Source: Candidatus Neomarinimicrobiota bacterium (lineage in GTDB: Bacteria > Fidelibacterota > UBA2242 > B5-G15). Taken from it: a stretch of DNA of 64,000 bases. The position numbers were made by a program, and so were the translations under genes. The notes beneath the pieces were generated by a model. That model worked only from the letters and a program-made list of their open reading frames with translations. It was not told where the DNA came from and ran no database searches. How positions within the stretch are numbered: the first letter of the stretch is position 1; every line of letters begins with the position of its first letter. Shown piece after piece: positions 58,842 through 61,101 of this stretch. The stretch is taken from NCBI GenBank assembly GCA_017656425.1, contig JACDNV010000002.1:1-64000 (forward strand), in the 5' to 3' direction.

Positions 58842-59239
58842 ATGCTGGCAGATATTTTTAGGAGGATTTGTTCTTTCATGTTTTTTGTATTTTTTTTAAA
58901 TGGTAGTGTGATAGTTTTTGCGACTGATTATTACATTGATAGTAACAATGGGAATGACAATAATGATGGGACAAGTCCAGATAGTCCGTGGAAGACATTA
59001 AGAAGAGTATCGGGGATGACTTTTCAACCTGGAGATAACATCTATTTTAAGCGGGGTACTATGTATTCAGGTTGTGCCGTTATAAAGGGTGATGGAACTA
59101 AAAACAATCCGATTACAGTTAGCGCGTATGGAAGCGGAGACCCACCAAAATTTACGAATCCTAATTATAATGACCACAATGGCAACGCCATGCAGATAAG
59201 AGGTGATTATGTAATTGTGGAAAACCTATATTTTCACAA
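58842..59239 (+). pseudogene. Secreted right-handed beta-helix protein, cut by the IS element
   Basis: The first about 132 residues of a secreted beta-helix (pectate-lyase-like) protein: a signal peptide, then the DUF1565-type start YYIDSNNGNDNNDGTSPDSPWKTLRRVSGMTFQPGDNIYFKRGTMY and the first helix turns GSGDPPKF, AMQIRGDYVIVENLYFHKG. The coding sequence then runs into the left end of the IS element at 59240. The open frame continues to 59321 only as IS sequence. A convincing remainder is not found after the IS. Such proteins often cut or bind polysaccharides, so this may be the broken last gene of the accessory locus. Confidence 0.78.
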
Positions 59240-59488
59240 GGGAGTGTCTCAATTTTTGTGTAAATGGGACAAAGAAAATATCCTCCTTACTGTTTCTTAC
59301 TCGCGTAAATGCATTCTATGAGTTACGCTTAACCATTTAACAAACGGAGGTATTTACCATGAAATTAGAGAAAGCCATCATCGAGAAACTGGAAAAGGAT
59401 CTGGAAACTGTCAAAACTATGGATGACTTGCTTGGTAAAAATGGCGTCATTAAAAAGTTCATCAAACACTTAACTATAGCAACTGTTA

Positions 59489-59509
59489 TCCGAAGGATCT
59501 CTTTTGAGA
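59489..59509 (+). repeat. Mini-repeat insertion R1 (subtype B)
   Basis: Two tandem hairpins, TCCGAAGGA and then TCTCTTTTGAGA. Removing 21-22 bp here joins the transposase frame as ...LTIATV/QEELTHHLGYE; 22 bp is needed for exact phase. Confidence 0.85.
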
Positions 59510-59588
59510 CAGGAAGAGCTGACTCACCATCTGGGTTATGAACGTTATCAGAAGAGAGAGCATCAGGGTAGCAACTCACGCAATGGTA

Positions 59589-59608
59589 TTCGAAGAATCC
59601 CTTCGGGA
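59589..59608 (+). repeat. Mini-repeat insertion R2 (subtype A)
   Basis: TTCGAAGAATCCCTTCGGGA. Removing exactly these 20 bp restores the transposase frame (NSRNG followed by SSTKNLKGEYGSIAI). Confidence 0.92.
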
Positions 59609-59652
59609 GTAGTACCAAAAATCTAAAAGGAGAATATGGTAGTATTGCAATA

Positions 59653-59673
59653 TCCGAAGGATCTCTTTTGAGA
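59653..59673 (+). repeat. Mini-repeat insertion R3 (subtype B)
   Basis: Same 21-bp sequence as R1. Removal joins GEYGSIAI with QVHLNREGEFEP in frame. Confidence 0.9.
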
Positions 59674-59749
59674 CAAGTTCACCTGAACCGTGAAGGTGAA
59701 TTTGAACCATTGCTGATTGCCAAGCACAAATGTGAATTTGGTGATCTGG

Positions 59750-59769
59750 TTTGAAGAATCCCTTCGGGA
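59750..59769 (+). repeat. Mini-repeat insertion R4 (subtype A, one mismatch)
   Basis: TTTGAAGAATCCCTTCGGGA, one change from the subtype A consensus. Removal of 20 bp joins CEFGDL with EGKILSLYAKWMSV in frame. Confidence 0.9.
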
Positions 59770-59810
59770 AAGGTAAGATTCTCTCTTTGTATGCCAAATG
59801 GATGAGTGTA

Positions 59811-59852
59811 TCCGTTCGAAGAATCCCTTCGGGATAGGATCCCTATTCGGGA
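59811..59852 (+). repeat. Mini-repeat insertion R5-outer (subtype C), split by R5-inner
   Basis: The subtype C sequence is present as TCCG (59811-59814) and TAGGATCCCTATTCGGGA (59835-59852), separated by a complete 20-bp subtype A copy. Rejoined, the two parts equal the uninterrupted 22-bp copy R7 exactly. Removing all 42 bp gives MSV/RDIQEHL, the expected IS256 sequence. Confidence 0.92.
59815..59834 (+). repeat. Mini-repeat insertion R5-inner (subtype A), nested
   Basis: A perfect 20-bp subtype A copy lying inside the subtype C copy R5-outer, four bases from that repeat's left end. It must have inserted later than R5-outer. Confidence 0.93.
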
Positions 59853-59873
59853 CGGGATATCCAGGAGCATTTA

Positions 59874-59893
59874 TTCGAAGAATCCCTTCGGGA
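59874..59893 (+). repeat. Mini-repeat insertion R6 (subtype A)
   Basis: A perfect 20-bp subtype A copy. Removal joins RDIQEHL with QDLHGLELSTVFISRLTDRV in frame. Confidence 0.93.
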
Positions 59894-59965
59894 CAAGACC
59901 TTCATGGACTGGAGTTATCCACTGTCTTCATTAGTCGTCTTACCGATAGGGTGCTTCAAGAAGTC

Positions 59966-59987
59966 TCCGTAGGATCCCTATTCGGGA
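59966..59987 (+). repeat. Mini-repeat insertion R7 (subtype C)
   Basis: An intact 22-bp subtype C copy: hairpin TCCGTAGGA followed by hairpin TCCCTATTCGGGA. Removal joins DRVLQEV with KDWQQHPLESVY, as expected for the family. Confidence 0.92.
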
Positions 59988-60160
59988 AAAGACTGGCAAC
60001 AGCATCCGTTAGAGTCGGTTTATGTTATTGGTATATTTTGATGCTATTCACTATAAGATTCGCAGTGATGGGAAAGTTCAAACCAGGTCTGCCTATACCT
60101 GTCTGTGTATTGATGTTCAGTGGCAACGGGATTTATTGGGTATCTGGATTGGTGAGAGTG

Positions 60161-60180
60161 TTCGAAGAATCCCTTCGGGA
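60161..60180 (+). repeat. Mini-repeat insertion R8 (subtype A)
   Basis: A perfect 20-bp subtype A copy. Removal joins LLGIWIGES with [17 protein letters not shown] in frame, with no extra bases left. Confidence 0.93.
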
Positions 60181-60317
60181 AAGGAGCACATTTCTGGTTG
60201 TCGGTGTTAACTGAATTACAGAACCGTGGTGTAGAAGATGTTTTAATTGCCTGTGTGGATGGTTTAAAGGGATTCCCTGAAGCCATTGAGACTGTTTTCC
60301 CACAAACACGTGTCCAG

Positions 60318-60337
60318 TGTCGAAGAGATCCTTCGGA
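60318..60337 (+). repeat. Mini-repeat insertion R9 (subtype D)
   Basis: TGTCGAAGAGATCCTTCGGA, a diverged form of the family. Removing 20 bp joins PQTRVQ with [13 protein letters not shown] in frame. The exact boundaries may shift by a base or two. Confidence 0.85.
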
Positions 60338-60602
60338 TTATGCGTGATTCATCAAATACGCAATAGTCTGCGCTATATTTCGTATAAAGATCAACGGGAA
60401 TTTATGAAAGACCTGCGGAGAGTCTATCAAGCTCCCACCAAAGCAGTGGCAGAAGAGGAATTAGCCCAATTAGAGAAGAAATGGAAAAAAGCCATCAAGG
60501 ACTGGACAAAAATTATTGCCCAATTGGCTATCCATTTCAAAGGAAGGTTAAGCCTAAAATTCTAATGAAAAAAGGTATTTACACAAAAAATGAAACAGTC
60601 TC

Positions 60603-61101
60603 TTCGAAGAACATTTATAGGAATAATTCCTCTAAAAAATAACCTATTTCTGGCTTATCTTATCCATCAAGATAACTCTCAATTCTACCTAATAACTCCT
60701 CCAAATTTATACAGTAAGAGATGTCAGAACTAGTTTAGCTTTTGTGATTTTCGATAATGAGAATACCTCAACAAATGATTCTATTTTTGCGGAAGTTATA
60801 TTAGAACATCTGCAATGCAATGTTTTGGAGTAAATCTCAGAGAGGTTATAGTATTACTAATAGTGGTAGGAGATTTGTAATTGTATGCAAAAAAGGATCC
60901 TTTTTTATCTTTAGAGAATTTGAGTCCATTTGTGAGAGGGCTAGAGTTCGGTTTTTTGGCAAAAAGGAAAGAATTGTTAAGAAAATTGCAATAGCTTCTT
61001 CTTATGTTAAAGATAAAAGTGGTAATATTTTGTCTACTGCTTTTGGCAAATATTATTGTTTAGATGTGCCCTCTAAAGAATAAAAGTTGTAAGTATAAGA
61101 C
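60603..61101 (+). other. Decayed sequence right of the IS element
   Basis: About 500 bases. A frame at 60820-61083 could encode 87 residues (KGSFFIFREFESICERARVRFFG near its middle) but has no ribosome site and no family I recognise. Another frame upstream (about 60702-60830, VRDVRTSLAFVIFDNENTS) ends just where this one begins, in a different phase, as if one gene had been frameshifted. TTCGAAGAA at 60603-60611 equals the first half of a subtype A mini-repeat. Most likely the remains of one or more broken genes. Confidence 0.45.

Follow-up and report, generated by a model that had tools for sequence, protein, structure and literature searches.

Short dispersed repeats of about 20–27 bp, SDR5 among them, were reportedly described in heterocystous cyanobacteria by Elhai et al. 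in 2008. To our knowledge, the mechanism by which DNA of about 20 bases moves has not been settled for these cyanobacterial repeats or for mitochondrial double-hairpin elements. Non-autonomous HUH elements (IS200/IS605, IS91 and Helitron) are recognized through a hairpin, make no target duplication and have a short target beside one end. SDR5 inserts between nucleotides 3 and 4 of HIP1, according to a portion of PMC4390886, and the mitochondrial element GC42 is described in sections of PMC4478555 as 42 nt long with a putative AG target duplication. Here we report repeats of 20–22 bp, remarkably small for mobile DNA, in the genome of a Candidatus Neomarinimicrobiota bacterium (G000; one draft assembly of 2.80 Mb in 50 contigs, given as 99.66% complete). 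The window, that is, the whole 64-kb stretch of DNA analyzed, corresponds to C2:1-64000. Comparison of sequences suggests that the repeats probably form one new family of non-autonomous mobile elements, which would be moved in trans, perhaps as folded single-stranded DNA.

Results

A first reading of the window made without database searches (the sequence-only reading) had claimed ten copies of a short repeat in four subtypes, each interrupting IS256 transposase sequence. Consensus scans, together with inspection by eye for subtype D, agreed with this claim in number, type and place: the repeats at 59489–60337 comprise five A, two B, two C (one split by an A) and one D. Their host was confirmed as an IS256-group insertion sequence on the plus strand (59238–60604), with a degenerate Transposase_mut gene from ATG 59359 and imperfect inverted ends of 28 bp (59238–59265 and 60577–60604; 86% complementary). 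At 58842–59265 this IS interrupts a chondroitinase-B-like gene (PF14592 match, truncated frame), and no target duplication of the IS was recognized there by eye. With the A consensus at up to three mismatches, five matches were found in the window, all within 59489–60337, and none in 100 dinucleotide shuffles. As had been noted, no copy was detected outside 59489–60337 when the entire 64 kb was scanned with the A, B and C consensus sequences at up to four mismatches. Rfam gave no gathering-level match at 59200–60700.

Comparison with unoccupied homologues of the same IS, which had been proposed as a check, was performed within the genome. Unoccupied sites with exact junctions were found for seven of the ten window copies (0–3 mismatches in 28 nt). 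On the plus strand, the 21-bp B element TCCGAAGGATCTCTTTTGAGA at 59489–59509 has an exact empty site in the C3 copy (C3:228448). The 20-bp A elements at 59589–59608 (TTCGAAGAATCCCTTCGGGA), 59750–59769 (one mismatch) and 59874–59893 are missing from the copies on C3, C15 and C23, each of which has the site empty, and the 20-bp A element at 60161–60180 has its empty site in the C15 and C3 copies. Also on the plus strand, a 22-bp C element spanning 59811–59852 is split into 59811–59814 and 59835–59852 by an A element nested inside it (59815–59834), and this C is uninterrupted in C3, C15 and C23. The second C element (TCCGTAGGATCCCTATTCGGGA, 22 bp, 59966–59987, plus strand) is present in four of the five aligned IS copies and its site is empty only in the C3 copy. 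The second B element (21 bp, 59653–59673, plus strand) also occurs in the C19 and C3 copies and is absent in C15 and C23, where the right flank has diverged. Among the other IS copies of this genome, no empty site was seen for the C at 59811, which is present in all five aligned copies, or for D. The latter, recognized by eye at 60318–60337 on the minus strand, is a decayed B-type element in reverse orientation that is intact in the C3 copy (TCCGAAGGATCTCTTAGAGA on the minus strand). The C19 copy, nearly identical to that of the window, carries all five A elements, both C elements and the B at 59653. These comparisons bear out the earlier view of the repeats as mobile, real insertions of defined length; tandem duplication and ancestral sequence are ruled out by the exact empty sites.

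The elements were found to be common elsewhere in the genome by a whole-genome search, which had likewise been proposed. At up to three mismatches, there were 39 C-type, 22 B-type and 16 A-type matches, counts that overlap because some places fit two types, and the reversed-pattern controls gave none. In the stretches of the genome that were read, we collected 83 copies of eight subtypes at 44 flank-distinct sites, with lengths of 22 bp (41 copies), 21 bp (26) and 20 bp (16); this set takes in eight of the ten window copies, the split C and D being outside it. Most copies read sit in IS remnants. Their hosts are the same IS, a second IS, an ISL3-group transposase gene, a second IS256-group element and an IS110-group element, and further copies were found in host genes and in DNA that is intergenic or decayed. 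The second IS was left unnamed because a domain search of five pieces gave only a sub-threshold rve_3 match; a stretch of it with stops written as X gave none. The spread over IS copies partly reflects IS duplication after insertion. The dead IS of the window had been regarded as neutral ground or a preferred element; it does hold elements, but it is not unique, as other IS groups and intact host genes hold them as well.

Several loci were recorded beside these. At C15:3450-3470, in or beside an IS110-group element, there is a 21-bp A-like element, apparently in frame (KFEESLSG) in an open frame of Transposase_20. Six elements of mixed subtypes occur within 600 bp at C18:33088-33682, between host genes, in DNA that appears non-coding or decayed. 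Short MITE-like IS derivatives with both ends and a large internal deletion, at C4:21585-22099 and at two C14 loci, carry elements, and in one of them the deletion end point (C14:9498) resembles a recombined C element. Finally, the ends of seven contigs (C13, C14, C15, C23, C25, C27 and C30) fall inside copies of the window IS, which suggests further near-identical unresolved copies, perhaps including an intact one.

Empty sites were then sought for the 83 copies by searching the rest of this genome, and the same-family genome G001, for the two 14-nt flanks directly joined (with no more than four mismatches per flank and six in total). An exactly unoccupied counterpart was obtained for 30 of the 83 copies, at 13 distinct sites and without target duplication or loss, in a search that was ungapped and could therefore find exact junctions only. 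For the other 53 copies, this ungapped search gave no empty site in the sequence searched. Four occupied copies match the empty site with no mismatch in 28 nt, namely the B at C15:49456 compared with C23, the B at 59489 of the window compared with C3, and the nested A elements of the window and of C19 compared with C3. In addition, G001 holds an empty site in which TATGATACTA is joined to TAGGTTATG, and this site is filled in six copies of the second IS. By comparison, insertion occurred in either orientation. Judged from the junctions, these pairs show that insertion was precise where an empty site was found, whether the target was a transposon, another element or an intact host gene, in which the frame was kept, and that it is, as far as such pairs indicate, in part recent. 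The earlier remark that no target duplication is needed is in line with the exact occupied and empty junctions at the 13 sites.

The sequence-only reading had seen no obvious target shared by the sites. This proved incorrect: the target is TR–element–NARG, where the dashes mark the junctions, and the opposite strand has 5'-CYTN directly before the element. Among 42 sites (the 44 sites minus two recombinant ones), the flanks have G at +4 in 38, A at +2 in 34, R at +3 in 33, R at −1 in 37 and T at −2 in 26. Over all 44 sites, G at +4 is found in 40 (binomial p = 4e-25 against the base composition of more distant flanks), and 24 of the 44 show the full R–NARG. The four sites without G at +4 are C15:1117, C18:33187, C18:33661 and the site in an S46 peptidase gene.

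This S46 gene is one of the intact protein genes that carry an insert. It encodes a peptidase of 719 residues, whose best matches among named genomes are 54–60% identical and come mostly from Candidatus Neomarinimicrobiota bins; by this one protein, the host would belong to that phylum. The A element at C2:140033-140052 encodes FEESLRE, seven residues that homologues lack. Of 80 homologues that covered the place, 45 were examined, and 44 of these 45 are without seven or eight residues at or near the insert (in some, split into two gaps); the exception (L164) has its gap about 20 residues downstream. Because the element here is 20 bases long, the frame is preserved by one further base. If this base is the A after the element, the original flank would have been AAA–GAAG, which fits the target rule. 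A 21-base B element in a response regulator gene (C1:100008-100028) adds VRRISVE, and an orthologue in G001, 67% identical, is without exactly these seven residues. At C10:62732, a frame of 177 residues contains another in-frame B element close to its end, and at C3:64675 a further element supplies the final residues of an M24 peptidase. The elements are also a means by which proteins can acquire peptides of seven residues.

Each subtype consensus can be drawn as two hairpins in tandem, the first with a 3-bp stem and a loop of 3 nt (most often GAA or GTA), the second with a 4-bp stem and a loop of 3–5 nt. The left stem is of the type TTC/GAA, TCC/GGA, CTC/GAG or GTC/GAC and the right stem TCCC/GGGA or TCTC/GAGA, and both sides of a stem change together. 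Since the CTC/GAG type came from a search for perfect double hairpins, it was bound to pair, and only the other types are independent; the GTC type was first found through its similarity to A. Both stems are perfect in 65 of the 83 copies (15 of 31 distinct sequences), and 18 of the 83 have a broken or wobble stem pair. The four subtypes of the sequence-only reading belong to one modular double-hairpin family. Of the 31 distinct sequences, 14 have GTA and 12 have GAA as the left loop, and GTAG or GAAG occupies positions 4–7, across the first loop and stem, in 77 of the 83 copies; this tetranucleotide looks like the NARG of the target. The closing C(GAA)G is that of the very stable DNA mini-hairpin GCGAAGC. 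Very stable DNA mini-hairpins are treated as a concept in a part of PMC10527192. The ends of the element show an inverted match of at most 3 nt by eye.

With DNA folding parameters, the double hairpin is weak, at only −1.1 to −2.8 kcal/mol, and between 17 and 45 of 300 shuffles per type fold as well, except for A. The best predicted fold of A is a different one. On the plus strand, six of seven types favor another fold or a single hairpin, and on the minus strand, which has the CYTN target as its 5' flank, five of seven are predicted to adopt the double hairpin. The case for the fold thus comes from the compensatory changes and not from energy. The elements are predicted to fold more stably as RNA than as DNA, as would suit a copy-and-paste route based on reverse transcription of a hairpin transcript into the target; part of PMC4478555 gives such a route as a suggestion for yeast mitochondrial GC clusters. 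No RVT_1 domain was found in this genome of 99.66% stated completeness, and we consider the RNA route very unlikely.

The history of the inserts was examined in the five aligned IS copies. The window and C15 carry B at 59489, which their close siblings C3 and C23 lack. Across IS lineages, the C copies differ only by one base in C23, and dS between the lineages is 0.23–0.50. We calculated dN/dS per segment, cut at one-base indels and without segments s1 and s2 (C19) and s8b and s9 (C23). Both before and after the frame-breaking C at 59811, the window–C15 and C3–C15 pairs gave 0.13–0.18 (Fisher p 1e-9 to 2e-5), and the range over all between-lineage pairs was 0.13–0.29; the window–C3 values, 1.14 and 0.32, were not significant and gave no clear constraint. 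Either the inserts entered both lineages after their split, or the transposase worked despite them. We favor the former, which would mean either repeated insertion at one site or conversion in a tract of about −3 to +10 bases around it.

The latter would be explained by skipping of the inserts by the ribosome or by RNA processing, as with mitochondrial byps, so that the transposase stays functional. We regard such skipping as extremely unlikely. The low dN/dS of lineages that share the frame-breaking C is consistent with it, but the inserts in the response regulator gene and (with the one further base) in the S46 gene are themselves part of an open frame, the window, C3 and C19 share an ordinary one-base frameshift relative to C15, the window and C3 share a second one, and the divergence between these two is without clear constraint. 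Moreover, contig C30 has at its end a C-terminal third free of inserts, and an intact master copy may therefore be unassembled.

In another, more novel reading, insertion would be homing-like. The elements would then be ultra-small single-stranded DNA transposons that re-enter the same target, with GWAG at the first loop reading the CYTN strand. The argument for this is that B occupies a single IS site in two backgrounds, both of which have a nearly identical sibling with the site empty, and that C stands at two sites with nearly identical sequence despite the dS between lineages; we hold it as a tentative and rather unlikely proposal. Its bolder variant, in which transposase inserts are skipped during expression, is less likely still.

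The same data bear on whether the elements are still mobile. An old burst could have been multiplied only by IS transposition and gene conversion, the elements themselves no longer moving alone. Such a history fits the concentration of copies in IS remnants and the sharing of inserts at identical places by sibling IS copies. It also fits the near-identical C at the same place in diverged lineages, which short conversion tracts could explain, and two sites with hybrid flanks (C14:9498; C6:48310 with C8:48315), whose appearance suggests deletion through recombination of two C elements. Against it, all 113 upstream codons compared are the same in C15 and C23, yet only C15 has B; the window and C3 differ by B with identical 28-nt flanks; and A is nested in C and elements have entered host genes. 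We therefore consider an end of mobility unlikely. According to the sequence-only reading, the same repeats at the same places in intact homologous IS copies would speak against recent insertion. For some inserts such sharing was indeed found, and the sibling copies that share them are broken too. The stronger proposition that sibling copies carry all the repeats, and hence that no insertion occurred, was rejected, since the sharing is only partial and unoccupied siblings exist.

No enzyme linked to the elements was found in the genome. The sole PF01797 match is an intact-looking TnpA-REP (RAYT) protein, with an HUH motif that we take to be PNHVHILL and a tyrosine presumably in YLKYI. Its TnpA-REP-like Y1 domain (C5:26438-26671) is flanked by GTAG-type palindromes (GTAG CACAGGCATTCCTGCCTGTG) and lies in frame inside an Eco57I-type methylase frame, between a YTPREIVHYM segment and the downstream methylase part. 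The elements might thus be REP sequences moved by this protein. TnpA-REP acts on single-stranded hairpins, GTAG helps choose the cut and cutting takes place at CT, as stated in part of PMC8266576; here, the other strand of the target is CYTN and the element has GTAG or GAAG at positions 4–7. In contrast, the GTAG of REPs precedes the hairpin, whereas GWAG here spans the first loop and stem, and REPs are mostly intergenic in the account given in that part of PMC8266576. Furthermore, the palindromes beside the RAYT gene are different ones, and a search of its locus (C5:24938-28171) with four element types at up to six mismatches yielded no element, only one unrelated match with six mismatches. 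We consider movement as REPs by this RAYT doubtful and distinctly unlikely. The protein is a candidate enzyme to which nothing links the elements.

Beyond this genome, a search of relatives had also been suggested. It gave no C-type match at up to three mismatches in 148 other genomes. A wider B/C pattern at one mismatch had 44 matches in its own genome and two single matches in the 148 others, fewer than the five of the reversed control there, and these two are at chance level. The exact C pattern was absent from genome_contigs (84,980 genomes) and viral_contigs, collections in which the own or near-identical records are possibly not included. By the B/C-type searches of relatives and the exact C pattern in the collections, the family seems confined to this lineage. 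In the literature, we found no such element in Neomarinimicrobiota and no bacterial double-hairpin element; subscription journals were mostly uncovered, so absence is unproven.

Discussion

Our data suggest that these repeats are probably small non-autonomous elements moved by an enzyme encoded elsewhere. An element without a gene requires an enzyme that acts in trans. Three features, namely the lack of target duplication, the asymmetric target and the paired stems, suggest that a folded single strand is joined in HUH fashion: a trans-acting enzyme would recognize the folded element as single-stranded DNA and join it at the target in the manner of an HUH transposase. The predominance of elements in IS copies may reflect the harmlessness of insertion there, and IS transposition and recombination between IS copies would multiply and reshuffle existing inserts. 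One genome here offers exact empty and occupied pairs, a target rule, a nested insertion, compensatory stems and inserts in intact genes, and with these features together the mechanism becomes directly testable.

Among known systems, two identities did not hold in the tests applied. MITEs do not fit, given exact junctions without duplication at 13 sites (in an ungapped search) and no IS ends. REPs do not fit either, as the tag is not at the end and no RAYT lies beside the elements. The elements share with REP/REPIN and RAYT the small palindromic form and a GTAG-like tetranucleotide, and single-strand hairpin recognition, a RAYT feature, may apply here too. Unlike in REPs, the tetranucleotide is inside the first hairpin instead of being an unpaired end tag, many copies are in genes and IS, and no RAYT is adjacent. 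They resemble non-autonomous HUH elements in having no target duplication and a short target beside the end, to which hairpin recognition might be added, but no transposase ends or larger relative were found here. Rickettsia palindromic elements are likewise palindromic in-frame inserts in protein genes, but they are 105–146 bp long according to PMC2229807, as against 20–22 bp here.

Closer parallels are offered by two systems, in both cases by description and not by sequence. Like the mitochondrial double-hairpin elements and GC clusters characterized in parts of PMC4478555, the elements are small, palindromic, gene-less, mobile, shuffled by recombination and richer in G+C than their surroundings, and they consist of two tandem hairpins with compensatory changes. 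GC42 differs in its length, its duplication and its mitochondrial location, whereas these elements have 20–22 nt, no duplication at 13 sites and a bacterial chromosome as host. The likeness to very small dispersed repeats of heterocystous cyanobacteria, pointed out from the beginning, was upheld: as with SDR5, the elements are about 20–30 bp, dispersed and gene-less, with precise insertion at a short preferred target. The target is TR–NARG rather than HIP1, and the phylum is different. This suggests that mini-elements are not limited to cyanobacteria and organelles. By analogy, the elements would appear to work most like SDR5 and the mitochondrial double-hairpin elements and GC clusters.
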